DNA of 64,000 bases from Symbiodinium sp. CCMP2592 (lineage: Eukaryota > Sar > Dinophyceae > Suessiales > Symbiodiniaceae): NCBI GenBank assembly GCA_905221615.1, contig CAJNDT010000964.1, forward strand, positions 1-64,000, read 5' to 3'. Shown here piece by piece: positions 4,378-25,191 of this stretch. A program made the position numbers and the translations under genes. The notes under the pieces were generated by a model. That model saw nothing but the letters and a program-made list of their open reading frames with translations. It did not search any database and was not told the origin of the DNA. Position 1 is the stretch's first letter. Every line of letters starts with the position of its first letter.

Positions 4378-4395
4378 CTGAGCGTCTTGCTCATG
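4375..4395 (+). promoter_or_regulatory. Candidate leaky UGA stop between Gag and Pol of YR1
   Basis: The Gag stop TGA is followed by CTG AGC GTC TTG CTC and then ATG, all in one frame, and Pol continues in that frame to 8250. UGA followed by C is the stop context known to be most prone to readthrough in other eukaryotes. The same arrangement recurs in YR2 at 21,054. Reinitiation at the ATG 15 bases downstream is the alternative for YR1. Readthrough is an inference. Confidence 0.5.
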
Positions 4396-7300
4396 ACTAC
4401 GGATTTTACAGTGGGTGCCTCTTTGCATGCGTGTTTGAAGAATTTAGCTGAACGCACGGGATGCGATATTAGTGTCGATTATGCAGACTCGGATGGCAGC
4501 CTTCTGGATTGGTCTAAGACCTCAACCTGGGAAGCTGTGGTACAGCAAGCACGCCATCGTGCTTGGGATGTGTGTTTAATGATTCCGCCTAGCAGCACTT
4601 ACAGCCGCGCGAGGCATCGACATGACGGGCGACGGAGTGGACCCAAACCCTTGCGTGCCCGTAATTTTCCCGATGGATTCCCATGGCTTGCTAAGCAACA
4701 TATGGCTGCCGTTGAGCATGAGAATTTCTTGATTTCACGTTGTGTGCATTTGGCCACCGTGTTGGGGGAGCTTCAGATTGGGTGGCTGCTGTTGCATCCC
4801 GAGGACCTAGGCGTGCTTGAGAACGAGGACTTTCCCGCTAGCATTTGGCAGCGGCATGAGATTAAATCTACTTTAGCAGGCATGCCCGGCACAAGGACTT
4901 GGGCAGTTCATATGTGCAGTTATGGGGCGGATGCGGCGCATCCGACCCGGGCAATCACAAACCTGCAAACAGGACCAGCGGCCATGCCTTGGCCCGCACT
5001 TGACGATCGGGGCCATTACACTGGACCACTTGTGCGCTGTGGGCATTTGCATCCGTCTGCAGCAGGGCGCCACGAAACTGCGTGGGCCACCAAATCTAGT
5101 TTTCCGCTTGCATTTCTGGAGTTGCTGGCCGAGCTTGCCCATGAACGTGCAGCCACAGGGCGAGCGACTGATTCGTCCTTTCAAGGGGCCGAGGATTTCG
5201 CTTGGTCCTTGATGCAGAGATCCCAACCATTGCATAAGCATGATTGCGAGGCTTTAGCTAGACTGCTGCCCTTCGAGACACCGCATCCGGCGGCAACTGG
5301 GGGAAGGCCTGCCACAGGCCGTGCATTCTTCGCAGGTGCGTTTTCCAAAGGCCCATTCTTCGGCCTGCGTCAGAGCTGCACCGCATTTCCGAATTCTGTC
5401 AAGTGTTACGCCTCCTTCTTGCGAAATACATTCCCAGGGAAGGTTTTCAGCTCGCTGGCGATCTTCGACAACGTGGCAGCTGCCATGCACAAGGACACCA
5501 GGAATGCACCGTTCCCGAACCTGTTGGTGGCCCTAACGGAATTCCAGCAGGGTCACGTGTGGTGCGAGTCCTCCACCGGCACGGTGCATCGTTCAGTTCG
5601 GGGAGTTGATCGCCCAGGCATCCTCCTGCCTGTTGCCGACTCACCGCAGGTTTTGATGGCGCATGAAGTCTTCCACCAGACAGAACCTTGGACGGGCGAT
5701 CGCTTACTGCTTGTAGGCTTCACAGTGCAGCGCACTGCCAACTTGTCCACAGACCAGCAAGCAATTCTTCGTGCCTTAGGCTTTGTCCTGCCTCCGTCCG
5801 AAACTCTGAAGCAGGGGGGCGCGGACGATGACAACAACAAAGCTGACACAAACCTGGACTTCCCCCGAGAGGATAACACCCCCCATGAGGCAACCGCTTC
5901 TGGGGCCCCGGGCCCGGCTAGCACCCCCTTGGGAGGGACCACCCAAGAGGCTTCCAGTAGCACCCCGTTGGAGGGGACCACTCCTTCGGCTCCCGACCTT
6001 GCACCTCCTAATCCCGAACCAAGCTTCCAGGAGAGTGAGGAAGAAGATGATGATGAAAGGGATTTTGATCCAGCTACAAGTCGCTGTAGGGGACCACCGA
6101 TAAAGTGTAGACACACTCGCGAATGGAGGGAGCTGGTCGATGGCTTCGGCTTGTGCTCTCCGGGCAGATGGAGGCCACTCGCAAGGAATGCAACTGCAAG
6201 CTCAGGGGAATGGAATCATGCTGTGGAGCTGCGAGAAATTCTTGTGCAGGCTGTGCGGTCGTCCCTTCCGGATCTTCGGAAAGCTTCATATCTCCTTGCA
6301 GCAGGACGCATGGCATCTTCTCCTTTCAGCAAGGACCTGATTGAGAACACCCGGGCACGCATTGCCGAGACCTTGCCAGATCCCGAGCAAGCCTTGTGTC
6401 GACCCGAAGGGCAGCCCTTCATGTTGCACATGTTGTCTCAGTCTTTGAAGCTGCTGGGAGACCCAGACTATGCAATACTTGATCAAGGCAGTGAATGCTT
6501 CGCAGAAGGTGTGCCGCTGGGATGGGATAAACCGATCCCCCGCACGCCACAGGTGTTTCCGAAACGCACCCACTTCAGGAAGCTTGATGAATCCGATTTT
6601 GATCCGTCGATGGTGAACTACCGATCGGCCGAGATGAATGCCTCCCAGCTGGAGGAGAAGTTCCGTGCGGACGAGCAGGCAGGTCTGATGATCTGCACCA
6701 CTGAAGCGGAGGCTCGCCGGAAATATGGGGAGGACGCAGTGCTCATAGCAGCTATGGGAGCTGTCACCAAGGCAAACGGTGACGTGCGCCCATTACACGA
6801 TGGGACCCATGGCATAAACCTGAACAACTCTATTAAAATCCTTGACAAGCTACAAGTTCCGGGACCTGAAGATCTTCAAGAAGTGGCTTCCCGAGTCAAA
6901 GAAAGTAAAGAAGCTCCTTTTACGCTTTGTGCCGACATTAGCCAAGCCCACCGGAATGCCAAAATCAGGGAGTGCGACTGGGCACGGCTAGCGTGTAAAT
7001 CTTCCAGCACCTCACGCGTCTTGTGGCTTAATAAGGTAGGAACTTTCGGGGTCAGCTCAGCGGCCTACTACTGGACCAGATTGTTCGCCACTGTAGGGAG
7101 GTGGACTTTCCGTGTGCTGCACCACGACAAGTTCTACATGCTTATTTATGTCGATGACCTCCATGTGGTGGTGTACGGTGCCGAGAAATTTGAAACCTTG
7201 TGGGTCCTGTTCTTGGCGATGGAAGTTTTGGGGACACCCTTCTCGTTCCACAAGTTTAAAGGGGGCGTCAGTGTGGACTACATTGGCTACCACATCAGCT

Positions 7301-8250
7301 ACTACGAGTGGGCAGCTGGCATCTCTGAGAAACGAGCCAACTGGATTATCGAATGGGTCAACCGTGTCGAGTCATCGAATTGGGTGGTCACCGGACGGGC
7401 GCTTACGGAGTTCACGGGACGCCTGTGCTTCGTGACACGGCTGTTAACTTGGTTGAAGCCATTTCTTGCACCGCTGTATGCTTGGAACAACGTGCTGAAC
7501 CGGAGCACGGCTGCCCAGGTCCCTGAGATGGTGATCCATGTCCTTCGGTTCTTCAGGTGGCAGTTCTTGAATGGGGCCCGTCTTGATGCCGTGCACATGT
7601 GCTGGCCGTCGTGCGAGCGCCAGGCCTTCAGGACCGATGCCAAATGTGAATCTGGACGGATCGTGCTAGGGGGATGGTCACTTGATCATGGCATGGACAC
7701 GCGTCGGGCACCTTGGTTTGCGCTGGAAATCTTTCCAGCGGATTTTCCGGCACTCTTCAAGGAAGATGGATCTTCTGAATGGGCATCGACAGCTGCGGAG
7801 TTGCTGGCCTCTTATGCCGGCTTGGTTGCTTTCAAACATCTTGAGACTTCAGGTGGCCGCGATTCGCTTCGCTTGCAGGTTCATGCTGGCACGGACAACT
7901 CTGCTACCCCAGCAGTGTTGGCTAAGGGCATCAGCAACAAGTGGCCAGTGCAGGGCTTGCATATGCAATTGTCACTGTCTTTGAGGAACGCCAACAAGTT
8001 GTGCCGGTTGTCTTGGCGCCCACGGGAGGAGAACCAGGATGCAGATGACCTGACGAATCTTCGTACCAGCAACTTTGATCAGGCCTTGCGGGTTCCCTTG
8101 TCATTGTCTGACCTCCCGCTGGACTTGTTCAACATGCTTCGGGAGGCCCATACCGATTTCTTGTCAGAGAAGGCGAGGCTCGCAGGTGTAAAGGCATTTG
8201 AACCGAAAGTGACGAAGAGACAGAAGTTACTTGACAAAACCGAATGGTGA
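4393..8250 (+). CDS. Pol of YR1: degenerate methyltransferase - 2OG dioxygenase-like - RT - RNase H
   Basis: The polyprotein has about 1,285 residues (numbering here is from the in-frame TTG at 4387; the ATG is residue 3). Residues 1-145 correspond to the methyltransferase-like domain of YR2, but the PPCS motif is PPSS (67-70), so the nucleophilic Cys is missing, and motif I is weak. Residues ~300-450 hold H368-x-D370, H430 and R439 (AMHKDTRNA; FHQTEPWTGDR), the metal and 2-oxoglutarate ligand pattern of Fe(II)/2OG dioxygenases. An acidic Pro/Thr-rich linker (~480-570) follows. RT is at ~780-1000: DVRPLHDGTHG, catalytic LCADISQAH, FGVSSAA, and Y921-VDD in IYVDDLHVVV. RNase H is C-terminal: FRTDAKCESG, EWASTAAELLA, GTDNSA. 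Expression is probably by readthrough from Gag. Confidence 0.85.
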   Translation: MTTDFTVGASLHACLKNLAERTGCDISVDYADSDGSLLDWSKTSTWEAVVQQARHRAWDVCLMIPPSSTYSRARHRHDGRRSGPKPLRARNFPDGFPWLAKQHMAAVEHENFLISRCVHLATVLGELQIGWLLLHPEDLGVLENEDFPASIWQRHEIKSTLAGMPGTRTWAVHMCSYGADAAHPTRAITNLQTGPAAMPWPALDDRGHYTGPLVRCGHLHPSAAGRHETAWATKSSFPLAFLELLAELAHERAATGRATDSSFQGAEDFAWSLMQRSQPLHKHDCEALARLLPFETPHPAATGGRPATGRAFFAGAFSKGPFFGLRQSCTAFPNSVKCYASFLRNTFPGKVFSSLAIFDNVAAAMHKDTRNAPFPNLLVALTEFQQGHVWCESSTGTVHRSVRGVDRPGILLPVADSPQVLMAHEVFHQTEPWTGDRLLLVGFTVQRTANLSTDQQAILRALGFVLPPSETLKQGGADDDNNKADTNLDFPREDNTPHEATASGAPGPASTPLGGTTQEASSSTPLEGTTPSAPDLAPPNPEPSFQESEEEDDDERDFDPATSRCRGPPIKCRHTREWRELVDGFGLCSPGRWRPLARNATASSGEWNHAVELREILVQAVRSSLPDLRKASYLLAAGRMASSPFSKDLIENTRARIAETLPDPEQALCRPEGQPFMLHMLSQSLKLLGDPDYAILDQGSECFAEGVPLGWDKPIPRTPQVFPKRTHFRKLDESDFDPSMVNYRSAEMNASQLEEKFRADEQAGLMICTTEAEARRKYGEDAVLIAAMGAVTKANGDVRPLHDGTHGINLNNSIKILDKLQVPGPEDLQEVASRVKESKEAPFTLCADISQAHRNAKIRECDWARLACKSSSTSRVLWLNKVGTFGVSSAAYYWTRLFATVGRWTFRVLHHDKFYMLIYVDDLHVVVYGAEKFETLWVLFLAMEVLGTPFSFHKFKGGVSVDYIGYHISYYEWAAGISEKRANWIIEWVNRVESSNWVVTGRALTEFTGRLCFVTRLLTWLKPFLAPLYAWNNVLNRSTAAQVPEMVIHVLRFFRWQFLNGARLDAVHMCWPSCERQAFRTDAKCESGRIVLGGWSLDHGMDTRRAPWFALEIFPADFPALFKEDGSSEWASTAAELLASYAGLVAFKHLETSGGRDSLRLQVHAGTDNSATPAVLAKGISNKWPVQGLHMQLSLSLRNANKLCRLSWRPREENQDADDLTNLRTSNFDQALRVPLSLSDLPLDLFNMLREAHTDFLSEKARLAGVKAFEPKVTKRQKLLDKTEW

Positions 8251-8284
8251 GACTGTCGGCTTCTCTCACGGCCGGTCTCAAGTT

Positions 8285-8548
8285 GGGGTGCTGTTGCCGG
8301 TTGTTCGATCAGCCGGTTGCCGTAAGTGCAATGCATTCTCCTTGAAGCCCGTAGGCTGTGCAGACCGAATCCGGAGAGTCCCGACACACGTCGCAAAATG
8401 AAGACCAGTCCGAGTGAGTGCGCATTCAGTTTGAACATGTCTGGAATGTTGCGAACTTGTTTTACCTTGTACCTTAACCTTGCCAGTGAACCCTGAAACC
8501 CCTTGCCACCCTAGAGCCGTAGCCTTCTTGGTTCAAACAGCGGGACAA
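8285..8548 (+). repeat. YR1 split direct repeat B1
   Basis: This 264-bp repeat matches 8879-9142 at a constant offset of 594 with one visible difference (ccttgaag versus ccttaaag). It runs directly into A2, giving the B1|A2 junction expected from a circular intermediate. A spliced-leader-like motif ends 11 nt before its terminus. Confidence 0.93.
8517..8537 (+). other. Spliced-leader-like motif in YR1 repeat B1
   Basis: The 21 bases starting CCGTAGCC and continuing TTGGTTCAA match the conserved dinoflagellate spliced leader (from memory CCGTAGCC, then ATTTTGG, then CTCAAG) at 17 of 21 positions. The motif lies on the coding strand of the element and ends 11 nt before the B1|A2 junction. An identical copy lies in B2 at 9111-9131. 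Relic spliced leaders from reverse-transcribed mRNAs are known in dinoflagellate genomes. Confidence 0.6.
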
Positions 8549-8781
8549 ACCGTTTGGGTTCCCCAAAAGGATTGTCTCGTGGTTTGAGCCGGGAGGGTGG
8601 GCCGGGGGAAAAGTGAAAAACTTTGCGTCAGGCTTCGCGCCGCTTGGAAAGTACTTTGGTAATTTCGTAGTTTGCAATGCCATGAGTTCCTCTTGCTTGT
8701 CTGCACTAACTGCGTTTTGCTTGAGCTCAGATCAACTGTACGAATGTCGTTGCCACTTTGGCACGAGGACAAATTTTGTGT
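8549..8781 (+). repeat. YR1 split direct repeat A2
   Basis: Second copy of A1 (351-583), immediately after B1. The 97 bp between its end and B2 are unique and hold no gene. Confidence 0.93.
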
Positions 8782-8878
8782 CCCACCCACGCCGCCCTTT
8801 ACTGCCGAAGGCATCACTTGTGTTTCAAGTGTCACTCTTGCATGCCAACGTCTGCTATGTGCTTGTATCGCACGGAAG

Positions 8879-9142
8879 GGGGTGCTGTTGCCGGTTGTTC
8901 GATCAGCCGGTTGCCGTAAGTGCAATGCATTCTCCTTAAAGCCCGTAGGCTGTGCAGACCGAATCCGGAGAGTCCCGACACACGTCGCAAAATGAAGACC
9001 AGTCCGAGTGAGTGCGCATTCAGTTTGAACATGTCTGGAATGTTGCGAACTTGTTTTACCTTGTACCTTAACCTTGCCAGTGAACCCTGAAACCCCTTGC
9101 CACCCTAGAGCCGTAGCCTTCTTGGTTCAAACAGCGGGACAA
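8879..9142 (+). repeat. YR1 split direct repeat B2 (right terminus)
   Basis: Second copy of B1; it ends CAGCGGGACAA and abuts interrupted copia sequence at 9143. It contains the second spliced-leader-like motif (9111-9131), again 11 nt from its end. Confidence 0.93.
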
Positions 9143-12100
9143 CGCTCTATCTCTAGTGAGGAATGGACCAATTGATTGAAGACTGTTTTTGAGTCCTTCA
9201 GTGCTGTTAGAAGGATTTCCACTCTGGATAGAGTATCTTGGATGGTGTCAAGATGATCCTTTCTTTCCTCCTTGTCTCTCTGGATAGAGTTTCGCAATGA
9301 TTGTGCGATTCTGAGGAGGTCGAGATATTTCTCAATAGGCATAGTTACCGTATGATTGTCATGTATGACAGTTGTTTCGTCGCTGCTCAAGTTCCTGAAT
9401 AGGACTTCCACGACTGGTAGAAACTCCGTGCTCCACGGTTCCTCTTCATCATATGTTTCTACGTGCTGTTGCACGCGTTGTGTAAACTGCTCGGCTGCTT
9501 CTACCGTTGCATCGATAGAGCTGACGTGTCTTACTGCCATGTTTCGGCACATAGTGTTAATGGCCTGGCCTTGATTGGCTTCGCCAAGTGCAGCGTCTGC
9601 ATGGTTGCAGAGTCCACTGTTATGGGCTTCTCTAGCTGCTTTTCGTTGAATGCGCCGATTTTGACCTCCTCTTCTGGTAGGACCTTTTGGTCTCGGAGGA
9701 TCTGAAGGTACTGTTCCTTTCGCCTTTGGCGGAGGAGTCTTAGGTGGAGGTGACATGTTTGCCTTGTTAGGCACTGGTGGCATTGCCTTGGGCACTGACG
9801 ACGATGAGGCACTTGCGAGTGCAGATGTACCTCTGGCTCTTGCCGAGGATCCCTTAGGGATTGATGTATAGGTAATCTGCATGGCTTCTTCGGCCATTTG
9901 TGAATGCAATGCATCACTGAATAATTGCCTCATATGAGGAGTAGTACTTGCATCGTCATAGGTTTGAAACCGTTCAATGTCCCTTTCGGTGCCACGTGAT
10001 CGTGTATCACCTCTTTGAAAAGGATCGTTCCTGCGAATCTCCGCAACTTGTACTGCCTGGAGGCAGGTTTTACACAGCACCTTCCTTGAAACATCTTTTG
10101 CTTGCTTGAGCTGGTAACAGCTGTCTGAAAGATGGTAGACTTCGCTTCGGGAAGTGTGCCACACAGGTCGCAAATCCGTTGTTTCTCCAGAATTGACCCT
10201 GTTGGGTCCTAAAGGTTCACGCGTCTGTGGTTCATTCTCGGGTTCGAGAAATGGTGGTGGTCGTTTCGCTGCTGCTTTTGCATTTGATTGTTGGCGGTCC
10301 ATACATCTGATGGGAGCCCTGGTAATCTGCTTCCACATCCAGTGTAAGCCCATTAGCAGCAGGAAAACGTTCCAAACAATGCTGAGAATGGAGAATTCTT
10401 TCTCACTGGTTAGTGAGTTGGGAAGTGAAGGTTCATCAGTCTTGATAGACTCTGCGTTCGCTCCACCGTGGTTACGGTGTCCGAACCAGCCCGACAACCC
10501 CGCTGCTGTGGCAGCTGTTCTGAGTGCCTTGCCGCTCGGAGCAGACGGTGGGCGTGATGCCTTCCTTCTTCTCCTCCGGCTGGAGGATTCGTCCTCTTGT
10601 TCCTCTTCATCTCTCTGAGCAGACATCAAGTTTGATGTTTCTCTTTCGTGTTCTTCGATGTCACTTTTTGTTGGTGACGGTTCTTCTTCTAGTCCATCCA
10701 GCTCTTCCAAAGACATGTTGAGCTTGTCAACAATATTGGTTCTTTGAGGTCTGGACCTTGATCTTGGTAGATCTTGTTGTGAAGAGGACGATGATGCCTG
10801 GCTCCTTCTTGGAGGAGAGCCTTCAGGCTCGCTGGGACGTTCAGGCTGTGGCCTTTCCCAGAATCTTCCATATCTGTGATAGCTACCTTGTGGTTGCTGT
10901 CTGTCGTACCAGCTGTTGCCGGATGAATACACAAATGAGTCTTTGTAATCCCAGTATTCAGCATTACGCTGCTTGTAAGCCTGTCGCTTGTCAGCGATCT
11001 TCTGAACCTGGGCATCTGACCGGTTGTGTTTCCCTTTTGTAAGGATTGGTTGTATCGTGAAGCCCAAAGGGCTGTGCCAATCTTTGTCAGAGGGACTCAA
11101 CCACAGGTCAAGGTTAGAAAAAGTTGAATAGTACTGCTTGACTGAGACAAACAGACGGATATCGATATCCCTGTTTCTGTTCATGTCCTGCCACATATCT
11201 GAGACTCGTTCCCAGTATGTTCTTTCGGCGGCAGGTGTAGCATCTCTTGGACTAGGTGACGCCGTGTGCGGCGTTTTACTCCAGTCAAGGATATAACTGT
11301 TGATACAGTCGAGGTCAGCAACTTTCTTCGCCGGGTCCGGCGGTAGACGATCTGCACGTGCCAGTCTGTGCTGGTCAGAGTTGTTCAAGCAGAGGTGTCG
11401 CACTTGTGAGTGCCTTCCTGCTATTCTGTTGAATGCTGCAAGTTTCTTCTCCAGGTATAGAGAAAACAAACCGTTTCGCGGGTGAACGTCTCCACCTTTT
11501 AAGGTGAGCCTCGACGCAATATTATTGAGATCCCCCGCAATTACATCCGGTTTGAAAGGGAGAACCTCGTTGAGGAACGCGTTCACCAGTTCGCGCCTCT
11601 GTTCTTCCTTATGAGTCATGTATGAGTTGAAATGGACGATCGCGATGGTGATGACCTTGTAAGGCCCTTTTGTACACCACATCTCGTCAAGATCGTTTGA
11701 TGCTTCTTGTGAGAAGATCTCTGCGTATGACTCAAAGTCTTCCTCTGGTGGCTCATCACCCTCGACATGGCCGTTCCATTCACAGAGAACCGGCGAAGGG
11801 TCGAGGTCCGACAGTGTCAGACACGCCTCTGGTGAGAGGTAAGAGCCATCAGTGGGTCCATCCTTGTCAGGATTTTTACCCTTGAGAGGGTCATATCCGA
11901 TAATCTTCATGTACTCATCTCTCGTCATCCTCTGGCCGGAATATGGGTGGACCCATTCTTTTGCCTCCTTGATGGTACTGTGGTACCCAAAGGTGAGGCG
12001 GCATACCGCACCGTGGCATGCCCACAGTCGCTTCTTGGGACCACCAGCCTTAGGCTTCATTGTTCGGTGACGGTAAAAGTGGTGGACGAGAGAGATGTCT

Positions 12101-15576: not shown

Positions 15577-15800
15577 TACGGCACAATGACCAAACAGGAT
15601 CAGGAACGCTTGGTTAGCCCGAAAGGCTGATTGCTGTGAGGCTCGAGGCTGAAAGCGGCTGCGGATGATACAGAACATATAATTCTCATGAACATGTCCG
15701 ATCTTAATGAAAACGCAGCTCGCAGACACAAATTTTCTTTTAGACGGAAAACAGTCTAAATAGAAAATCCAGCACATGGTTGTGCTACCAGCAAACGAGA

Positions 15801-17130
15801 CTACCACCATATTCCTTGGCAGTAAAATAATCGGTAAATCTCTGTTGAGATATCAATTCCAAGGAAGGCTACCGCTGTGGCGGCATTCTTGAGATTGTCT
15901 ATGATCCACCGAACAGTGAAAGCTTTATGTTGAAGAAGTTCACGGAAGGGTGGATGAATGTCTGTTTCTGGTAAATTCCCTGTTTCCAGAGCCTTGATAA
16001 GCTCATCAGGTTGCGCCGAGTGCTTTGTTAATGCATCAGCTAGGCAGTACTTCGAGCTTACATGAGCTAGGTCATCTAAAGATCCAGAGTTGGATTCCTT
16101 ACGAAGCATCTGAATGAGGTGGTGAGTTTCCTTCTGCTCTGGAAGGTGTGTCGTGCCTGCTGTTGTCACAAGATTGTTCGCATCTGTTCTGATATGTATG
16201 GGTACGGTCTCTGATGAGAGATCTGCCCAAAGTCCCTTGAGGAACAGGCAAGTACCAAAGCAACGCATCAGTGCGTTAAGCTCTGCCACTGTTGTGGACA
16301 TTGTGGTTGTCGTAATCTTGTGAGACTCATAATCCACCAGGCTACCTCTCGAGGATGTTTCCTTAATAGAGGATTCAGAGAAATCGTTCTTCTTGGAAGA
16401 AGCAGCTGCTGCTGATTGTTTCATTCCCTTTAGCTTTGGATTTCGATCTTCAGCAAGGAAAATAACATGTGCTCTCTGAGATGATTTGTCATCATTGTTC
16501 CTGTAGGAAGCATCAGGGTAACCGAGGATTCTGAGATTTCCTTTCAGCGGCCAAAAACGCAGTTCTACTTCAGTAGACTTCAAAATCCTAACAAGCTTGT
16601 TCAATTCTCGAATATCACCGATAGTAGGCTTGGCAGCCTTACTCGCACACCGACTGAAGCGATAACAGATGTGAGCTTGAGTCCGGCTTTGTAGCCAGTT
16701 GATCTGTCCTAAAACACTTCTGTAAGCAGTGTGCTGCTGTGGTGTGCATTGTTGCTCATTGTTGAGCTTCTTATCAAAAACAATTTCCTCTAGAGCTTCA
16801 ACAGCTAGGTTCTGATTTACTGAGATATGTGCTGGCACTGATGCTGTAGCATCCTTCCAGACTAATCTCTGTCCTACAAACATAATATCGTTCGTGTCTT
16901 CAGAACCGACTGCAAACTCCTTTTTGATCGATTCAATCACGGCCTTACGAAAGGTGTCATCACCGGCCATGCACAGGTCATCTACATGTAAACAGACTAC
17001 TCCATGTACCTGTCTACCCTTGGCATTGTTGCCTGCTATGGGATCTAGGAGATAGTCAATCGCTGATTCCATGGTCTTTGGCTGAGACTTCTTGAGCTCA
17101 GCATCTGCTGTTGCAGACTTCTTACCATAC
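15801..17130 (-). pseudogene. Copia RT C-terminal part and RNase H (3' half of the split Pol)
   Basis: This is the C-terminal half of copia Pol, displaced from its 5' half (25,737-29,087) by YR2. It begins VLYGKKSA, contains the RT catalytic motif LHVDDLCMAGDD (~17,000-16,965; His where Tyr is commoner), the RT end SRTQAHICYRFSR, and a copia-type RNase H: GYPDASYRNN (~16,520), TVAELNALM (~16,280), IRTDANNLVTT (~16,190). It ends TEIYRLFYCQGIWW before TAG. The apparent N-terminal ~90 residues of the longer open frame (to 17,414) are antisense YR2 repeat A1 and are not part of the gene. About 225 bp separate it from the ORF2 start at 15,576. Confidence 0.85.
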
Positions 17131-17137
17131 AGAACAT

Positions 17138-17361
17138 GCTGCTTGGGCCTGACCAAAAGTGTGTTCGGGAGCCTTGAGGGGGGGCGGGGGGGGGAATGCA
17201 TCTCAGAACGCTTGGACTTTCCTGCGGACATGTGATTGAAGATTTGTGATTGAAAGTTTTTTACTTCGGTGGAACAGCGTGTTTTGCAAGGCAGCTTGAT
17301 CATGTGTACAGTGCCAATGAGATCGCTCCTCAGCAGAGTTACGACTCGAGTTCTTTTGTGA
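17138..17361 (+). repeat. YR2 split direct repeat A1
   Basis: This 224-bp repeat matches 25,192-25,415 at a constant offset of 8054. It starts GCTGCTTGGGCC, contains G-rich runs and ends TTCTTTTGTGA. Confidence 0.92.
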
Positions 17362-17413
17362 GTGGGTGGGCGTAGGGGACCTCCGGCGCTATGGCTCACC
17401 ATGAGTGAATTCA

Positions 17414-19408
17414 ATGGGCTCGGAGTGGCAGCAGCTTCGAGAAATCAACCCTGTTTTCTGCGAGCGTGTTTCGAAGGTCTTCTTGCATATTGGAAACTTT
17501 TGCTTGGCTGCAGCTACACTTGAGGATGTACAGGCAATCGTGGATGATTCGATGAGTGATGTTCTTAAGATTGAGGATCGTGTGGCGCTTACAGAGTCAG
17601 TGCATAAGTGGTGCGCGCTTCATCAAGGGACAGTGGAAAGGACTGTTCGCGAGATCGGGCAGAATGTCCGACGTGGGCCTTATATCCGTCGTGGGCCCAG
17701 TGTGACGGCTGCCGATTTGTATGAGGGGCTTTTGGCTTCTGACCCTGTGCTGGGTTTGGCTGCTCTTGAGAAGAAGTTAAAGCTTCGCAAAGCTGGAACA
17801 GGGGCGCGTGTGGAAGCAGAGGACTTGTGCAGGCGCCGCTGGGGTCTCAAGCTCGCGGGCTACATCCAGGAGGCGGATCTGCCAGCATCTGAGAGAATTG
17901 GGTCGCTGGCTGACGCGGAATCGGCCTGGCTACGGGCTTTCGGTAGCAGGCGCGGCAAGACCTTGAAGAATCGGGCTCGCACGTGGGAGCCGGTGCGCGA
18001 GTGGATGATTCAGGCGACTGGGAAACCTTGGCCAGGAGACGCATCGCTGTTGCTGCAGTACTTTGATGAGAGGCATCAGATCAGGCCGATGGGGAAGACT
18101 GTTCCGCAGAGTATCTTGTCAAGCCTCGGTTTGCTGGAGCTGGTTGGGCAGAGGCCTTCAGCAGATAGGCTGTCGGAGGATCCTTTGCTTGTGGAGTCTG
18201 TGAAGGCATGGACGATGCAATTGGAGACAGGTGCCGAGCCGGTCAAGCAGGCGGAGCTCGTTACGGTGGCAATGGTGCTCTCGGCTGAGATTCTGCTGGT
18301 GAAGGTCGGGACACCCCCTGGGCTGCGGTTCGGATGCTTCATTTTCTTGCTTATGTGTTGGGGAACGCTGCGTTGTGACGATATACAGGGGATCGATCCT
18401 TCGAGTGTTACGCTGTCACAGCTTGGAATGAAATTTGTTCTTTCCCGGACCAAGACCTCTGGACCTGGAAAACGGATCGGGCAGCTGCACGGATACCTTG
18501 TGAGGAGCATAAGCCTTTCTGGCTATGACTGGATTGCGCATTCATGCAAACTCTTGATGAGCGAGGATTTCAAGTTTGCTCGGGATTTCTTGTGTCCAGA
18601 CATTGGTGAGTCGTGGGAAGTCAAATCGAGGGAGTACGTTGGAGCAGAGGGCGTCGCCAACCTTGTACGACGTGTGATCCTGGAGCTGCCGGTCCCGGGG
18701 AAGAAAGATGTGGTCTGGGGTCTGAGCAAGACAACGAAGCTGGTTCCGAAGGAGCTGGCGCTCTTCTGGTCCGGGCACTCGCCGAGGCATTTCCTTCCAT
18801 CCCTGGCGGCAGCAATTGGGATCGACGAAAAGAAGCGCGACTTTCTCGGACGGTGGGCGGCTGCCCGGCAGGGGTCAACCGCTTATGTGCTGACGGCCAG
18901 ACAAATTATTCAGCAAGTTCAGGCTGAGGTGTGCGAAACACTCTTGACTGGGAAGAACCAGCCCGGCTACATCGAGGAGGAGCTGCTTCTTCGCTTAAAG
19001 GCGTTTGCGGAGCAACATGGAGTTTCTAACGGGGCTGTTGCACGCCACAATGTCATGGTGTGGTGTGCACTCAACTTGTGCTGGAGTCTTCAAGGAAAGT
19101 TTCCGGCAATTGCAGTTGACCCCGGAAGCCATCAGCAAGCGGTGGCCGAGCCACCGAAGGACCAGCCGGCGCCTTCTCCGGAGGATGCAGATGCGCCATA
19201 CTTTGTTGTTGTGAGTCGTAGTGGGCACAGACGTCTTCACATGTCACGCACTTGTGCTGTAAGGCAGGAGCGTTGCTTGGAGACCATTCCTTTGTACAGC
19301 ATCACTCAGGATTCTGCAGATGCAATTTGTAAGTTATGCAGGCCCCGGCTAAAGGAGCAAGGGGCGGTCAGCAGTGAGTCCGCATCCTCAGATGCAGTGG
19401 AGCCGTGA
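17414..19408 (+). CDS. Tyrosine recombinase/integrase of YR2
   Basis: The 664-residue protein is homologous to the YR1 recombinase along its length. I start it at the ATG at 17,414 (MGSEWQQLRE); the open frame extends three codons upstream only through GTG. Catalytic residues: R320 in MCWGTLRCDD, a Lys region in VLSRTKTSGPG, H455-x-x-R458 in GHSPRHFLPSLAAAIG, Trp in LGRWA, and candidate nucleophile Y491 in TAYVLT. A C-terminal Cys/His mini-domain (RRLHMSRTC...CKLC) repeats the one in YR1. Expected role: integration of the circular element. It is the first gene after repeat A1. Confidence 0.88.
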   Translation: MGSEWQQLREINPVFCERVSKVFLHIGNFCLAAATLEDVQAIVDDSMSDVLKIEDRVALTESVHKWCALHQGTVERTVREIGQNVRRGPYIRRGPSVTAADLYEGLLASDPVLGLAALEKKLKLRKAGTGARVEAEDLCRRRWGLKLAGYIQEADLPASERIGSLADAESAWLRAFGSRRGKTLKNRARTWEPVREWMIQATGKPWPGDASLLLQYFDERHQIRPMGKTVPQSILSSLGLLELVGQRPSADRLSEDPLLVESVKAWTMQLETGAEPVKQAELVTVAMVLSAEILLVKVGTPPGLRFGCFIFLLMCWGTLRCDDIQGIDPSSVTLSQLGMKFVLSRTKTSGPGKRIGQLHGYLVRSISLSGYDWIAHSCKLLMSEDFKFARDFLCPDIGESWEVKSREYVGAEGVANLVRRVILELPVPGKKDVVWGLSKTTKLVPKELALFWSGHSPRHFLPSLAAAIGIDEKKRDFLGRWAAARQGSTAYVLTARQIIQQVQAEVCETLLTGKNQPGYIEEELLLRLKAFAEQHGVSNGAVARHNVMVWCALNLCWSLQGKFPAIAVDPGSHQQAVAEPPKDQPAPSPEDADAPYFVVVSRSGHRRLHMSRTCAVRQERCLETIPLYSITQDSADAICKLCRPRLKEQGAVSSESASSDAVEP

Positions 19409-19682
19409 CACATGAGGGGTGTGAAAATTTCGTCGCATCAGGGGCTTGTCCCGTGAGTCAAAGCAGGAAGTACTTCGGTTGTGCCACGTCCCGTGAGTAT
19501 CAGACTGGGACATTGCATCAGATTGAGAAGAGCCGCAGTCACGTCAGTATCAGGTGCAGTGCTTTGACATGTCTTTCTTGTCTTAACGTTGTGCGAATTG
19601 AGGTGAGCCAATCAGACTCTTCAGACACAGTGGCATTTCTTCACACAGTGTGTTCGGTGGTAGCTTGCAGTGAGTTCCAGAC

Positions 19683-21056
19683 ATGGATTTGCCAGCTGGA
19701 GTGAGTGAGGAAGCGGCTTCGAAGTTCTTGTCCACTGAAGTCGATGCTGAACTTGCACACATCCTTCAGGAAGCTGGAGTCCCGCTTGGATTGCAGTACA
19801 AACTCACACAGTCTTTCAAGACTGTGAGGCGGTTTCAGTCTTATGAGGACACCCGTGCAGGGATACGAGATGCATTGAAGAACGATTTCGCTCTGGAGCC
19901 TACCACTCTTGATAAGCGCGCTGGGATCTCAGCTGTGATTAGTGCTTGGGAGGCATGTCAACAATTTGCCGCGAAAGAGCAGGAGCTTCGCGCGGAAGCG
20001 CGCGTGTTGGGGGTTTCAAGGCCCGTCACACAGACAGATCGGAGTGCGATGAGAGCCGCCTTCGAGGCGACCCACGGCAGGCTTGAAGATGCACATGAGC
20101 CTTCCGAGGATTACATCTCATGCAAGATGGAGGAGCTTGAGGCTCATGAGCCGCCGGCTTCGCCGCTGTCCGAGGTTACATCACGCAAGACTGTGAAGAC
20201 TCAGGGGATCCAGACTGCAGTCGATTCTTCAGGCCATGTTCGCATCGTGCGGACAAAGGTCAAGGGATCATTGCCTCAGGGCACTGAGGAATTGCGCACG
20301 GTGATGCGTGTTGAGTGCAACTTGTGGTGCTTCTTGGCGACCAAGTATCGCAACCGCGAGCTCTTGCGAGGCATGGACCCCGAGTGCTGGAATCAGTATG
20401 TTGCTTTTCTGCTGTCTGACAAGGTTTACCTTATGAAGGTGCCGATGGCAGGGGGCAAGGGCAATCAGACCGAACATGTACCATTGCGGCCCCCTTGGTC
20501 AGTGTTGCTGAATTTCGAGTTTGAGTTGCGAAAGGAGGCAATCAAACGGGCTGTACAGGGCAATCGGCCTTTGAAGGATACACTCGTGGAGGTGACGTCC
20601 GATGCTCAGCTCAAGGAGCAGTATTTCACATCGCCCATTGCCCTTCAGCAGGTTGCACCTCCACCGCGGCCAGATCCTTTCTGGCCACAGCGACGGTTCC
20701 GACAGTGGGACAATGATTGGTCCGAGAGCCCGGCCAAGTGGCAGCGAACAGGCAAAGGACGTGGCCATGGAAAGGGCAAGAACGGCAAGGGGGGCAAGGC
20801 CAACCGCGATGAATCCAAGGGCGATGGCAAGGGCCTCGGCGGTGGCAAGGGCAAGAGTGATCATGCGCTCTGGACACACACGCCGGATGGACGTCAGATT
20901 TGTTTTCCATATAACGCTCAGGGTTGTGATGGCAGCTGCGGTCGAGTTCATGTATGTCGCGTCCGAGGGTGCATGCAGTCCCATCCGATGTGGCAGCATT
21001 TCCAGAGCTTGGCAGCAAAGGCGGCAGCACCGACCGGGGCGCAAGCCACCAACTGA
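19683..21056 (+). CDS. Gag-like nucleocapsid protein of YR2
   Basis: The 457-residue protein is collinear with the YR1 Gag: shared EVTSRK, TEELRTV, FEFELRKEAIKRA and KEQYFTSPIALQQ, a Gly/Lys-rich basic region (KGKNGKGGKANRDESKGDGK), and a C-x7-C-x3-C-x3-H zinc finger (CFPYNAQGCDGSCGRVH) with further Cys/His to the end. It probably packages element RNA. It ends in TGA at 21,054-21,056 followed by CGT, and the Pol frame continues directly after it. The start is the ATG at 19,683 (MDLPAGVSEE), which aligns with the YR1 Gag start. Confidence 0.8.
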   Translation: MDLPAGVSEEAASKFLSTEVDAELAHILQEAGVPLGLQYKLTQSFKTVRRFQSYEDTRAGIRDALKNDFALEPTTLDKRAGISAVISAWEACQQFAAKEQELRAEARVLGVSRPVTQTDRSAMRAAFEATHGRLEDAHEPSEDYISCKMEELEAHEPPASPLSEVTSRKTVKTQGIQTAVDSSGHVRIVRTKVKGSLPQGTEELRTVMRVECNLWCFLATKYRNRELLRGMDPECWNQYVAFLLSDKVYLMKVPMAGGKGNQTEHVPLRPPWSVLLNFEFELRKEAIKRAVQGNRPLKDTLVEVTSDAQLKEQYFTSPIALQQVAPPPRPDPFWPQRRFRQWDNDWSESPAKWQRTGKGRGHGKGKNGKGGKANRDESKGDGKGLGGGKGKSDHALWTHTPDGRQICFPYNAQGCDGSCGRVHVCRVRGCMQSHPMWQHFQSLAAKAAAPTGAQATN

Positions 21057-21074
21057 CGTTCCAAACTCACCGTG
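21054..21074 (+). promoter_or_regulatory. Candidate obligate UGA readthrough site between Gag and Pol of YR2
   Basis: TGA C at the end of Gag is followed in the same frame by CGT TCC AAA CTC ACC GTG CTG TAT CTT TTC GCT GGG, the last six codons being methyltransferase motif I. There is no ATG in frame before the methyltransferase core; the first internal Met is near Pol residue 180. Unless a non-AUG start is used, Pol needs readthrough of this stop, or trans-splicing into this region. Confidence 0.58.
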
Positions 21075-24000
21075 CTGTATCTTTTCGCTGGGCAGGCACG
21101 GGATGGAGATATCCGATCACACTTACAGCAGCTCTGCACGTCGCGGGGACTGGATTTAATTTTGCATGAGTTTGATTTGCTGCGGGGTCCTGAACAGGAC
21201 CTATCGTCGCACAGGCTTTGGGAGCGTCTTTTCAAGGACATTTCGTCTGGAACCTATGATATCCTTATTTTGAGCCCGCCTTGTTCCACTTTTTCGCGGG
21301 CTAGACATCGTTTTGCGGGGGCATTTGGCCCACGCCCACTTCGTTCACATGGCCATCTGCTGGGTTTTCCTTGGTTGCGTGATTCAGATCGCACAAAAGT
21401 TGAGCTGGCAAATTTCTTCGTGCAACAATCTTTTGAGGCCATCCGTTTACAGAGGCAGCAGGGCTTGTACTTCATTCTTGAGCACCCTGAGGATCTGGGC
21501 CGTGTGCCGTCTGGTGAGAGGCCTGCTTCCATTTGGTCTTTTGATGAGGTTCGTCAGATTTGCGCTGGAGGCGATGTCAGTTGCTGGGCATTGCATCAAT
21601 GCCTTTTCGGGGCTATGTCTTGCAAACCCACTCGCTTGCTATCCAATCTGCCCGGAGCATTGAACTTTGGGATACAGATGCCATGTTTCAATGATGACGG
21701 GGACTACGTGGGGCCGCTCTTGCGCTGTCCGCATTCACATGCAGATCGAGCCTGCGGTTTTCAGGATGGCACTTGGAAATCGGCCGCCACGGCGGCTTAC
21801 CCTTCGGAGTTCGCTGCTTTCTTCGCCCGTCTCTCTTTGAGTGTGATGCCTGAGCTGAGGGCCGTGGCTGACTCCGACCTGATCCCAGCCAACATCCCTT
21901 CATCCGCCGAAGCCTTTGCCACGGAGTGCATCGCACGCGGTTCTTTCGATCGTGCTTCAGTTCAGATTCTTTTCGACTTGCTTCCTAAGACTCGGCCTCA
22001 TAAAATCACGGGCAGTGCAGAACCTGGCACCGCTTTCTTTGGAGGCACTGTGCACCAGGAGGGTCTCACCGCACCGCGGTCCACTTGTTTTACATTCCCC
22101 GAGTCCATGCGTGTGATCAATGCTTTTCTTCACTCCGTGGACCCGCACCACCGTTACGCTGCTTTTGTTCTCACAAAGAACGTGACTAGTGAGGTTCATC
22201 GTGATCCGCGAAATGCAGCTGTGCCCAACATGATTGTGGCAATTTCCTCCTTTACTGATGGTGGCATTTGGATACAGGATGACTCAGGTACCCAGGTGCG
22301 ATCCTTCCACGGCTCGCCCGTCACAGGCACTGTACACTCCTTACAAGACGGACCCGTCTACCTGGATGCCCGTGGATGTTTGCATGCTACCCAACCTTGG
22401 GTTGGGGATCGTCTCATCGCCATTGCATACACCCCTCAGAACATGCACCTGCTCTCTGTTGATGATTCGGCTTTTCTGGCTTCATTGGGCTTTCCTGTCT
22501 TGGATTCCTCTCCTGCGGGGGGGGAGGCACCAGCGGAGTCCTTCGTTTCCTCAGACAACTTCACCTTGGCTGCAGCAGTGCCGGCGATAGACAACTCAGG
22601 CACTGGAGATGCTCAGGAGGTCGTGGTGATCGATCATGATGAGTCGGCCAGGGAACCTTTTGACCCCAAGACTAGTCGCGCTTTCGGGCAGCCCATGATC
22701 TGCAAGTTTGAAATGGGCAAGCAAGAGTTTGTGGACGGCTTCGGGTTGTGTTCGCCTGGCCGTTGGGCTCCCGAGGCGAGAGAGAAGTTGGCGTCGAGTG
22801 ATGAGGTGGCACATGCAGAGGGAATTCGCGGATTGCTACGAGACTTTGTGATTGATCAGCTGAAAGACCCCAAGGACATGGCGTTCCGTCTCGCGACGGG
22901 CCATGTGAAGAATTCTCCTTTCGCGGAGGCTGCCTTGCAGAAGTTGAGGCAGAGGATCGTCGGGTTGATCCCAGGGGCGCCTTCAGACCTGCTGCGTGTT
23001 CCCGAGCGGCAGCCGTTCCACTTGTACATGCTGGCCGAGTCGCTGAGGCTACTTGGTGACCCCGACTGGGAGATTCTTGTGCAGGGGGAAGAGTGTTATG
23101 CCGAGGGGATGCCGGTGGGCTTCGACTCGCCACTGCCAACGGCACCGCAGGTGTTCCGGCCGAGGGACCGCTTCCGCAAGCTGGATGAGAGTGAGTTTGA
23201 GCCGCAGATGCAGAACTACTCTTCTGCCGAGCTGTCTTCAGATAAGATCGAAGAGCACTTCAGGGCTGAGGAGCGGGAAGGCTTGATGGTGGCGATGACT
23301 GAAGGGGCCGTGAAGGCGGAGTACGGCGAGGGGCGACTTCTGGTGGCCGCCATGGGGGCCATTCTTAAACCAAGTGGTGATGTCCGCCCTCTTCACGACG
23401 CCACCCACGGCGTCCGCTTGAACAATGGTATAAGGATTGCAGACAAACTCGAAGTGCCTGGACCTGCGGAAATCATCGAGACCGTGTCCAGGGCGCGGCA
23501 GGATTTCGGCGTCCCCTTCTCCATTGCAGCGGACATTGCCAAGGCACACAGGAGGTCCAAAATACGACGACGCGACTGGCCCTTGTTGGGCTGCCGGACT
23601 TCGTCTGCATCTAAAGTGATTTGGCTTAATTGCGTAGGAACTTTCGGGGTAAGTTCAGCTGCGATCCTTTGGGCCAGATTGTTCGGATGCATCGGACGCT
23701 GGGTCTTGAGAGTGATGGGACGGCTCTGGAATGTGCAGATTGTGTACGTTGATGACCTTCATATCGTGGTGACTGGTCCCGACAAATACGTGGTGCTCTG
23801 GATGATCTTGGCTGCTTACGAGGTGCTGGGCACGCCGTTTTCTTACCGGAAGTTTCACGGTGGTGTTGAATGCGAGTTCGTGGGCTACTGGCTTTCTTAC
23901 CGAGGGAGTGCCGCCGGGATTTCGCTCAAGAGGACGCGCTGGGTTCTTGATTGGATCGACAATGCCGAGGCGAACAACTGGTTCGTCACAGGTCGGCGCT

Positions 24001-24851
24001 TTGCCGAATTCCTTGGACGGCTCAACTTTGTTTCCAGGGTGTTGACTTGGATCAAACCTTTTCTTGCACCGCTGTATGCTTTTGACGCCGTCTTGCAGAA
24101 GGGGACTGTGGCGAGGATTCCGGAGATGGTCTTCGTGTCGCTTGTTTATATCAGGGAACAGCTTGCGGAGTCCAGGGGACTACACAGTGTGCTCCAGGAT
24201 TGGCGGGCGCCGCGCGAGAGTTTCAGGACGGATGCAAAATGCACAAACGGCTTGGTGGTGCTCGGGGGCTACTCGCTTGAGAATGGGACGGACCCGTCAG
24301 TTGCACGCTGGTTCTGCCTCGATGTGTCGCAACAGGATCTGCCTTGCCTCTTCAAAGATGACGGCGATAGCCAATGGGCATCGACGAGTGCGGAGTTGCT
24401 GGCCTCGCTTGCTGCGTTGAAAGTTTTTGATCACCTGGAAAAGGTGACGTCAGGTGTGCACGACAACATCAGGACTGTGGTTTGCGGCGGAACTGACAAT
24501 TCTTCGACTGGCAAGCTGCAGAAGAAGGGCTCGAGCACTAAGTGGCCGTTGATGGGCATCCAGATGGCTTGTGCAGCGGCTTTGCATAAAGTGAACAAGC
24601 AGCTCACGCTGCAGTGGAGGCCTAGAGATGAGAACACTTTGTCGGATGCCATCACCAACCACGACTTCTCGAGTTTCTGCCCGGAGCTGAGAGTTCCTTT
24701 GAAGCTGGACGATCTGCCGCTTGATATTTTCCTACGGATGATTCATTCCAGGGAGGCCTTCGTGAATGCACGCGTCAGCTTACAACACCTGGTATCAAGA
24801 GAGACTTCGATGTCGCGTCGTGAGAAGGAGCAGAGCAAAACACCTTGGTGA
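21057..24851 (+). CDS. Pol of YR2: methyltransferase - 2OG dioxygenase-like - RT - RNase H
   Basis: There are about 1,264 codons after the Gag stop; residue 1 here is the GTG at 21,072. Methyltransferase domain, residues 2-145: motif I LYLFAGQARDGD, motif IV SPPC with C71 followed by STFSRAR, and LEHPED at 136-141, the pattern of cytosine-C5-type enzymes. Dioxygenase-like region, ~330-460: H376-x-D378 (EVHRDPRNA), H438 and R447 (LHATQPWVGDR). The spacing from first to second His is 62, as in YR1. RT: DVRPLHDATHG, SIAADIAKAH, FGVSSAA, Y892-VDD (VYVDDLHIVV). RNase H: FRTDAKCTNG, QWASTSAELLA, GTDNSS, then WRPRDENTLSDA. All visible catalytic residues are present, so it looks functional. Confidence 0.87.
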   Translation, partial: RSKLTVLYLFAGQARDGDIRSHLQQLCTSRGLDLILHEFDLLRGPEQDLSSHRLWERLFKDISSGTYDILILSPPCSTFSRARHRFAGAFGPRPLRSHGHLLGFPWLRDSDRTKVELANFFVQQSFEAIRLQRQQGLYFILEHPEDLGRVPSGERPASIWSFDEVRQICAGGDVSCWALHQCLFGAMSCKPTRLLSNLPGALNFGIQMPCFNDDGDYVGPLLRCPHSHADRACGFQDGTWKSAATAAYPSEFAAFFARLSLSVMPELRAVADSDLIPANIPSSAEAFATECIARGSFDRASVQILFDLLPKTRPHKITGSAEPGTAFFGGTVHQEGLTAPRSTCFTFPESMRVINAFLHSVDPHHRYAAFVLTKNVTSEVHRDPRNAAVPNMIVAISSFTDGGIWIQDDSGTQVRSFHGSPVTGTVHSLQDGPVYLDARGCLHATQPWVGDRLIAIAYTPQNMHLLSVDDSAFLASLGFPVLDSSPAGGEAPAESFVSSDNFTLAAAVPAIDNSGTGDAQEVVVIDHDESAREPFDPKTSRAFGQPMICKFEMGKQEFVDGFGLCSPGRWAPEAREKLASSDEVAHAEGIRGLLRDFVIDQLKDPKDMAFRLATGHVKNSPFAEAALQKLRQRIVGLIPGAPSDLLRVPERQPFHLYMLAESLRLLGDPDWEILVQGEECYAEGMPVGFDSPLPTAPQVFRPRDRFRKLDESEFEPQMQNYSSAELSSDKIEEHFRAEEREGLMVAMTEGAVKAEYGEGRLLVAAMGAILKPSGDVRPLHDATHGVRLNNGIRIADKLEVPGPAEIIETVSRARQDFGVPFSIAADIAKAHRRSKIRRRDWPLLGCRTSSASKVIWLNCVGTFGVSSAAILWARLFGCIGRWVLRVMGRLWNVQIVYVDDLHIVVTGPDKYVVLWMILAAYEVLGTPFSYRKFHGGVECEFVGYWLSYRGSAAGISLKRTRWVLDWIDNAEANNWFVTGRRFAEFLGRLNFVSRVLTWIKPFLAPLYAFDAVLQKGTVARIPEMVFVSLVYIREQLAESRGLHSVLQDWRAPRESFRTDAKCTNGLVVLGGYSLENGTDPSVARWFCLDVSQQDLPCLFKDDGDSQWASTSAELLASLAALKVFDHLEKVTSGVHDNIRTVVCGGTDNSSTGKLQKKGSSTKWPLMGIQMACAAALHKVNKQLTLQWRPRDENTLSDAITNHDFSSFCPELRVPLKLDDLPLDIFLRMIHSREAFVNARVSLQHLVSRETSMSRREKEQSKTPW

Positions 24852-24886
24852 TGGCTTGAACTGACGGCCTTGCTGCCTTCCTACGG

Positions 24887-25190
24887 GGGGGAAGTGAGGC
24901 ATCTGCGACCGTCATGTGAACATGTGGCGCATTGCTTCAGCCGACGAGGATCAGTTCGACGCACCGAGTGAAAACATCTGACTTCCTGAACGGCATCTTT
25001 TGTGTGACGCTTCAAGCTTGAGATTGATGGACTGCTGATTCTTCCTCTCACGACATTTGCATTGGCGTGGAGCTTCTGCTATTGCGCATGAGAGTTTGGA
25101 AGCTTTGATTTTCCTGCGAAGTCTGATTTTCCCTTAAACCCTGTCCTCAACCCTCAAGGCTCAAAAGGTTCGGCTCAAGGCGTGAGAACA
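24887..25190 (+). repeat. YR2 split direct repeat B1
   Basis: This ~304-bp repeat matches 25,432-25,736 apart from a one-base indel. It ends GCGTGAGAACA and is followed, after one base, by A2. Confidence 0.92.
25165..25179 (+). other. Weak spliced-leader-like motif near the end of YR2 B1
   Basis: AAGGTTCGGCTCAAG resembles the 3' half of the dinoflagellate spliced leader, with GGCTCAAG exact. It ends 11 nt before the B1 terminus, the same distance as the stronger motif in YR1. The copy in B2 ends at 25,725, again 11 nt from its terminus. On its own this match could be chance. Confidence 0.35.
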
Positions 25191-25191
25191 C

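Follow-up and report, generated by a model that had tools for sequence, protein, structure and literature searches.

A predicted TET/JBP-like oxygenase domain in the Pol of retrotransposons from Symbiodinium

Layout of YR1 and YR2 and predicted fold of the oxygenase-like domain

The first 64 kb of contig CAJNDT010000964.1 (C964 in the searches below) of the dinoflagellate Symbiodinium sp. CCMP2592, hereafter the window, contain two retrotransposons in one orientation, YR1 and YR2, each with three open reading frames (ORFs) in the order putative tyrosine recombinase, Gag-like protein and Pol (Table 1). In both Pols a region resembling a 2-oxoglutarate (2OG)-Fe(II) oxygenase, the subject of this report, lies between a methyltransferase-like region and the reverse transcriptase (RT). 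Split direct repeats of the A1...B1-A2-B2 type, 99.6-99.7% identical, flank both elements and bound YR1 at 351-9142 and YR2 at 17131-25737, which makes the elements larger than the stretch 4393..24851 given in the original prediction. Such repeats and an RT, recognizable in both Pols by a YVDDL box, are features of the tyrosine-recombinase (DIRS/Ngaro-like) class. The recombinase assignment of ORF1, which gave no Pfam match, was made by eye from HSARH or HSPRH together with GRW...Y, which we take to be a tyrosine recombinase motif. The RTs of the two elements are 54% identical, and their Gag ORFs share 64% DNA identity across 890 bp. The RVT_1 profile matched the YR1 Pol with an expectation value (E) of 0.013, under the cut-off, and gave no match to the YR2 Pol. 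According to PMC5890265, the RTs of Symbiodinium DIRS elements fit Pfam poorly, and DIRS-like elements of Symbiodinium have an A-coding region-B-A-B layout.

The original prediction had pointed in both Pols to an H-x-D motif, a second His 62 residues after the first and an Arg 9 residues beyond it, and these putative metal and 2OG ligands were found at the expected places in YR1 (codons of H368 at 5488-5490, D370 at 5494-5496, H430 at 5674-5676 and R439 at 5701-5703) and in YR2 (H376 at 22197-22199, D378 at 22203-22205, H438 at 22383-22385 and R447 at 22410-22412), as were the surrounding strand motifs NAPFPNLLVA / NAAVPNMIVA and EPWTGDR / QPWVGDR. The YR1 domain was modelled with AlphaFold2 (pLDDT 87.7, pTM 0.85) as a double-stranded beta helix, the fold that the prediction required, and its best structural alignments were with 2OG-Fe(II) oxygenases of this fold. 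The top matches were tied (6n1f, NgTET1, TET2, AlkB and FTO, and likewise ALKBH5), and the 50 structural entries listed, many of them the same protein repeated, were by title all TET, AlkB/ALKBH, FTO or NMAD-1, except for PHD2 and for 6n1f, an oxygenase whose title states no substrate. The predicted fold of YR1 and the H-x-D...H triad with its downstream Arg are both those of the 2OG-Fe(II) oxygenase superfamily, and the model suggests that the domain of the YR1 and YR2 Pols is nearest in fold to nucleic-acid oxidases of the TET and AlkB types.

One result weighs against this assignment: when the whole Pols were searched, Pfam recognized no 2OG oxygenase in YR1 or YR2 themselves. Used as query in profile searches of PDB sequences, the domain retrieved only a calcium-binding-protein-39-like chain (E 0.65 and 1.4), and the single YR2 domain four unrelated chains (E 0.39 or worse). 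Matches to NCBIfam and PHROGs were weak and unrelated (best 0.0024 and 0.0078). The lack of a significant Pfam match to YR1 and YR2 alone is what speaks for a coincidental H-x-D...H...R pattern in an unrelated fold, an explanation that is hardly credible given a high-confidence model with 2OG oxygenases on top, the conservation of the ligands and the Tet_JBP match of a related subfamily (both below). The dioxygenase claim was supported by the predicted fold, by the ligands across divergent copies and by purifying selection, and not by Pfam recognition of YR1 and YR2.

Conservation, linkage to reverse transcriptase and relation to TET/JBP

Because a pattern shared by two divergent relatives is weak proof, the sample was widened beyond YR1 and YR2. 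Three protein searches yielded 19 database proteins (P0003-P0021), of which P0003-P0016 are YR-type Pols or gene models containing Pol pieces, and P0017-P0021 are polyproteins, Copia-type by eye, with the same H-x-D and, where complete, the H...R. The oxygenase region of the YR2 Pol shares up to 100% identity with P0003 and P0004, both from Symbiodinium sp. CCMP2592, and P0017 is 27% identical to YR1. In the host genome (1.098 Gb, 5383 contigs) the YR2, YR1 and P0017 domains gave 4955, 4914 and 4656 first-look candidates, respectively; all of the 150 scored for each query matched, with overlapping lists, and the unscored ones are unconfirmed. Ninety loci were taken from the score-ranked YR2 and YR1 lists, 30 from the top and the others for spread, a choice that under-represents decayed copies, and 83 of them had alignments of at least 150 residues (L029-L035, which were shorter, were left out of the ligand count). 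Together with YR1, YR2 and 8 of the 19 database proteins, these made 93 rows; the other 11 proteins are near-copies of rows used, or partial or chimeric gene models, and P0008, P0009, P0020 and P0021 are gene models without the distal His/Arg stretch.

H368 was retained in 92/93 rows, D370 in 93/93, H430 in 92/93 and R439 in 93/93, the departures being L080 (Pro at 368) and P0019 (a gap at 430). The rows include L009, which is the YR2 of the window, the duplicates L036/L039, L037/L040 and L038/L041, and 10 redundant identical strings, and they cluster into 35 groups at 90% identity, 22 at 70% and 15 at 50%. When the 35 representatives at 90% identity were aligned, the four ligand columns, named beforehand, were all within the 14 best-conserved of 193 columns, for which the chance with randomly drawn columns is about 2e-5 (C(14,4)/C(193,4), which ignores residue-type differences in conservation). 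Loss of the ligands in most related copies with a conserved RT, the outcome that would have spoken against the original prediction, was not observed.

The ratio of non-synonymous to synonymous substitution rates (dN/dS) was computed for ten pairs. Between L041 and L042 (dS 0.4-0.6) it was 0.119 in the oxygenase, 0.213 in the methyltransferase-like region, 0.063 in RNase H, 0.013 in RT and 0.422 in the linker, and L043 and L047, both near-copies of L042, gave values in agreement. The near-identical pairs (oxygenase dN/dS 0.336, 0.094, 0.396 and 0.255, from 2 to 5 non-synonymous changes each), L041 v L040 (no non-synonymous change) and the saturated pairs YR1 v L056 and YR2 v L041 were not used. 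The oxygenase-like domain is under purifying selection. CpG depletion, examined as a footprint, showed no difference.

Conservation of this kind bears on whether the fold and ligands might have been kept for a structural or nucleic-acid-binding role in Pol with no catalysis. The methyltransferase-like neighbour is under selection between L041 and L042 (dN/dS 0.21) despite an Ala at motif IV, so that retention of a fold without its expected chemistry does seem to happen in these elements. Such a role is nevertheless very improbable for the oxygenase, all four of whose metal and 2OG ligands are among the best-conserved columns across 15 clusters at 50% identity, since binding would not need H, D, H and R together.

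The association of the domain with RT was analyzed by a genome search with the YR1 RT (query 6544-7416), in which the best 134 of 1569 candidates were scored. An oxygenase was located upstream of RT on the same strand in at least 116 of the 134 matches, a lower bound because the count drew on 63/150 rows of the YR2-domain list and 100/150 rows of the YR1-domain list; in linked matches the start-to-start spacing was 478-1546 bp (median 1236). Among the other 18 matches, at least four (on C3446, C2962, C205 and C5366) have an oxygenase on the same contig, about 11-14 kb off. As read from translated frames, the order is methyltransferase-like region, oxygenase and RT in YR1, YR2, L041 and L101, and oxygenase, methyltransferase-like region and RT in L053 and L100, with L104 showing the first two of these; L099 and, within its open frame, L048 have oxygenase and RT but show no methyltransferase-like region. 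L099 is one of twenty-nine places (a 33% match to query residues 8-179, among the best 150 of 4955 candidates) with a Pol that begins with the oxygenase; 20 of them have 946-residue frames with nearly identical scores, which looks like a recent burst. Upstream of its oxygenase, L099 has a Gag-like frame that carries a Cys/His knuckle.

An integrase, identified by eye in L102 and from a sub-threshold rve match in L103 (4.5e-6; 27.3 bits, cut-off 32.6), precedes the oxygenase in both. RVT_2 gave no match to either frame at E<=0.1, so that the label Copia-like rests on inspection by eye. The L103 element (G000:C313:629500-634500) has a frame of 3508 residues with an integrase-like stretch and an oxygenase that, at 48% identity, is closer to that of YR1 than the YR2 domain is (35%). 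A tree of 36 domains grouped L083, which is the L103 element, with the YR1 clade (support 98/96), and the other four integrase-type rows formed a separate group (100/100); two label changes are forced. The tree has many long branches and 14 open forks out of 33, and of the 31 rows without an integrase-type label most are the domain alone or have unclassed neighbours. The oxygenase module therefore seems, as judged from these sequences, to have moved between element classes at least once. A viral or bacterial origin was considered and set aside: 15 pattern matches in viral contigs and 2 in prokaryote contigs included none that was confirmed, and a tblastn search of phages with the L106 domain gave no match.

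The relation to known oxygenase families was checked with Pfam profiles. Tet_JBP matched 5 of 28 members (best 5.3e-5) and 4 of a second set of 6 (6.2e-5 to 0.12). Other families listed for the 28, namely WD40_2 twice and two more once each, are unrelated and reached 0.051 at best. In the second set P0017 had a better, though weak, match to a cupin profile (0.0017); cupins, too, have the beta-helix fold. The best Tet_JBP score, that of the L106 domain, was 6.2e-7 and 29.2 bits; the curated cut-off (34.9 bits) was reached by no member, YR1 having no match and YR2 none over the cut-off. L106 is 83% identical to L076, which is in turn 35% identical to YR2 over 192 residues and was retrieved by the YR2 query at 4.5e-28, and the Tet_JBP-matching subfamily is thereby connected to the YR2 domain. 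Genome-wide, with 150 of 155 candidates scored, Tet_JBP had four matches at E<=0.001. They belong to one subfamily and lie in frames of 1231-1283 residues that contain the oxygenase-like domain together with a methyltransferase-like region, with RT expected outside the DNA stretch examined. The AlkB profile (2OG-FeII_Oxy_2) matched 13 places elsewhere, in frames of 120-517 residues (20 of 20 candidates scored), and AlkB-type Pfam families matched none of the 28 members at E<=1. Both genome searches work on single exons and would miss a host gene whose exons are short. By sequence comparison, the predicted oxygenase domain is TET/JBP-like without being a Tet_JBP member, and one related subfamily is recognizably related to TET/JBP.

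These searches bear on two other substrates. An AlkB-like RNA demethylase that shields the transcript from surveillance based on N6-methyladenosine (m6A) or other methylated RNA, a role already proposed for the orchid Gypsy elements, would agree with the structural tie of AlkB, ALKBH5 and FTO and has a precedent in a Gypsy-encoded AlkB that is an m6A demethylase in vitro (PMC9289625). It appears rather unlikely, since Tet_JBP does match members of the family and AlkB-type families match none of the 28, and since none of the 13 AlkB-profile places lies in a frame as long as these Pols; it also overlaps the RNA branch of the mechanism proposed below, so that the two are not exclusive. An active oxygenase acting on a protein (for instance as a hydroxylase of the Gag or Pol of the element, or of a host chromatin or translation factor) instead of a base is unlikely, because the structural entries listed, many of them repeats, are nearly all TET, AlkB/ALKBH, FTO or NMAD-1, the sequence relation points to Tet_JBP and the domain is placed ahead of RT.

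The methyltransferase-like region and neighbouring sequence

Motif-I-like FAG, PPC-like and EHPED/ENP-like motifs are visible in the methyltransferase-like region of some members, and the original prediction had taken this region for a writer. The Pfam profile DNA_methylase (PF00145) matched best in the YR2 region, at E 0.16 and 11.8 bits (cut-off 22); it gave no match to the whole YR1 and YR2 Pols at E<=5, so that the DNMT of SymbioDIRS-Dnmt3 elements was not found in them, and none to the L104 and L101 regions at E<=1. A PDB profile search with the region placed DNMT2 (0.25) behind an unrelated coatomer (0.062). In the host genome the same profile gave 124 listed matches with 123 of 1338 candidates scored, and the method therefore works here; contig C964 was absent among those matches, which at this scope is not conclusive. 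Among 50 loci examined (L009-L058, many of them near-copies and L038/L041 one place), motif IV was found in 31; the residue at its Cys position is C in 19 of these, A in 11 and S in the remaining one. By eye the Cys is kept in L101 and L104-L107. Since no significant DNMT match was obtained and the Cys is replaced in 12 of 31 loci and, by Ser, in YR1, with L099 carrying an oxygenase and no such region, the writer claim is unproven, and YR1 is unlikely, on sequence grounds, to encode a working C5-methyltransferase.

A general model of writer and eraser as an obligate pair was also rejected, because no methyltransferase-like region is seen beside the oxygenase and RT of L099, the motif-IV Cys is variable, and the methyltransferase dN/dS of YR1 against near-copies exceeds that of the oxygenase (1.38 from 9 v 2 changes and 0.09, respectively, against L057; 0.90 over 148 codons only and 0.34 against L055).

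Outside YR1 and YR2 the window contains further mobile sequences. YR2 appears to be inserted in a Copia-type RT gene, whose minus-strand frames 15801-17414 (by eye) and 25721-29071 (RVT_2 3.7e-15, first half of the profile) flank it, and a second Copia copy, 81-83% identical, lies inverted at 32206-39700. The Copia polyproteins 25721-29071 (-) and 33518-38131 (+) contain, by eye, a degenerate methyltransferase-like stretch (SPDHSQWSS or SRDHSQWSS, with ENPYYS-type motifs) and no visible oxygenase. A frame of 2227 residues at 9127-15810 (-), the end of which overlaps YR1 repeat B2, resembles a B-box zinc finger in one stretch (Pfam 3.8e-4, below cut-off) and, by eye, an endonuclease in another. 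A third element at 60001-64000 (+), running off the window, has an RT (RVT_1 2.1e-4, below cut-off) overlapped by a putative recombinase ORF (62264-63457) that gave no Pfam match, and its methyltransferase-like region has Cys at the motif-IV place. A low-complexity ORF of repeated GGVRGSAGE-like units occupies 55157-55951 (-).

Table 1. Features of the YR1 and YR2 elements (positions in the window; aa, amino acids)
Feature	Position	Strand	Basis or remark
YR1 terminal repeat A1 (233 bp)	351..583	+	99.6% identical to 8549-8781
YR1 ORF1, putative tyrosine recombinase (686 aa)	645..2705	+	Open frame; HSARH, GRW...Y by eye
YR1 Gag-like ORF, C-terminal Cys/His-rich knuckle (449 aa)	3028..4377	+	Open frame; knuckle by eye
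YR1 Pol (1287 aa): methyltransferase-like, 2OG-oxygenase-like, RT, RNase H	4387..8250	+	Single open frame; YVDDL at residue 921
YR1 Pol methyltransferase-like region	4387..5112	+	Motif-IV Cys replaced by Ser (IPPSSTYSRAR)
YR1 Pol 2OG-Fe(II) oxygenase-like double-stranded beta helix, residues 300-480	5284..5826	+	Predicted fold; H368 D370 H430 R439
YR1 Pol reverse transcriptase	6517..7416	+	YVDDL box; relatives in own genome
YR1 Pol RNase H-like region	7507..8136	+	Named from its place after RT; no Pfam match
YR1 repeat B1 (264 bp)	8285..8548	+	99.6% identical to 8879-9142
YR1 repeat A2	8549..8781	+	Repeat comparison
YR1 repeat B2	8879..9142	+	Repeat comparison
YR2 terminal repeat A1 (231 bp)	17131..17361	+	99.6% identical to 25185-25415
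YR2 ORF1, putative tyrosine recombinase (667 aa)	17405..19408	+	Open frame; HSPRH, GRW...Y by eye
YR2 Gag-like ORF (457 aa)	19683..21056	+	Open frame; identity to YR1 Gag
YR2 Pol (1259 aa): methyltransferase-like, 2OG-oxygenase-like, RT, RNase H	21072..24851	+	Single open frame; YVDDL at residue 892; no Pfam match
YR2 Pol methyltransferase-like region	21072..21839	+	SPPCSTFSRAR (motif-IV-like), EHPED; DNA_methylase E 0.16, below cut-off
YR2 Pol 2OG-Fe(II) oxygenase-like domain, residues 308-487	21993..22532	+	Alignment with modelled YR1 domain; H376 D378 H438 R447
YR2 Pol reverse transcriptase	23115..24014	+	YVDDL box
YR2 Pol RNase H-like region	24105..24734	+	Named from its place after RT
YR2 repeat B1	24887..25191	+	99.7% identical to 25432-25737
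YR2 repeat A2	25185..25415	+	Repeat comparison
YR2 repeat B2	25432..25737	+	Repeat comparison

Known systems, proposed role and significance

Base oxidases carried by DNA transposons are already known, as is the AlkB of one Gypsy lineage in orchids. The fungal TET/JBP elements (Kyakuja, Plavaka, EnSpm, PHISTA and others; PMC12730594) are likewise mobile, encode an oxygenase with HxD...H and TET-like relations, and their modules have moved between element superfamilies; however, the carriers are DNA transposons and some Helitrons, whereas the Symbiodinium domain is located within Pol upstream of RT and, by Pfam score, is no more than TET/JBP-like. That 2025 survey of fungi states that it found no retrotransposon with a TET/JBP dioxygenase. 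The Ty3/Gypsy elements of the orchid Phalaenopsis (PMC9289625) are likewise retrotransposons that acquired a 2OG oxygenase, an AlkB m6A demethylase encoded by an additional ORF, near plant AlkB, in one lineage of 25-kb elements; in contrast, the Symbiodinium oxygenase is a Pol domain, occurs in YR-type and integrase-bearing elements and is unmatched by the AlkB profile. SymbioDIRS-Dnmt3 (PMC5890265) shares with YR1 and YR2 the host group, the A-coding-B-A-B repeats, an epigenetic-enzyme domain in Pol and a variable domain order, but it has a true DNMT3, whereas the methyltransferase-like region of the present elements is not recognized as a DNMT and their constant part is the oxygenase; neither "dioxygenase" nor "TET" appears in the main text of that report. 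From NgTET1 of Naegleria (14% identity), human TET2 and kinetoplastid JBP1/2 the YR domain differs in being below the Pfam cut-off and fused to RT. No earlier report of this domain was found in the available text of the open-access papers retrieved, and notice of it elsewhere is possible.

Taken together, the predicted fold, the conserved ligands and the Tet_JBP relation make it fairly probable that the domain is an active TET/JBP-like base oxygenase within Pol that acts on the nucleic acid of the element itself, the target being the less certain part of this reading. The domain would bind Fe(II) and 2OG and catalyze oxidation. Since it is part of Pol it would travel with RT, and new complementary DNA (cDNA) or packaged RNA of the element would be its natural substrate, the oxygenase perhaps being delivered with RT to either. 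In DNA the oxidized base may be 5-methylcytosine or thymine, and in RNA it may be a methylated base. Such oxidation would help the copy to escape, or to blend into, a heavily methylated host DNA that contains 5-hydroxymethyluracil (5hmU). The methyltransferase-like neighbour is an optional partner.

PMC6723414 describes high methylation at nearly all CG sites of two Symbiodiniaceae and gives the 5hmU share of thymine in dinoflagellates as 12-70%, calling the role of this base unknown; the same source considers 5hmU in general a likely product of TET-family enzymes and, in its available text, names no dinoflagellate enzyme, nor do the available texts of PMC11071213 and PMC11065753. A stronger proposal, that element-borne oxygenases are JBP-like thymine hydroxylases and a main source of dinoflagellate 5hmU, is quite doubtful; if it were true, cDNA would be hydroxylated during synthesis, the abundance of the mark would track the elements, and its enrichment on repeats would be accounted for. 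In Breviolum 5hmU is enriched on most repeats except some long interspersed nuclear elements, most strongly on Maverick DNA elements (PMC11071213), a pattern that fits a general link to repeats and does not single out oxygenase-bearing elements.

What the present analysis adds is a TET/JBP-like domain as a regular part of Pol, in many copies and in both YR-type and integrase-bearing elements of one alga. It would be a retrotransposon enzyme tied to DNA modification in a setting where CG methylation is near-complete and thymine is partly 5-hydroxymethyluracil, and the elements of this coral-symbiont alga may offer a way to test the origin of the unusual DNA of such algae.

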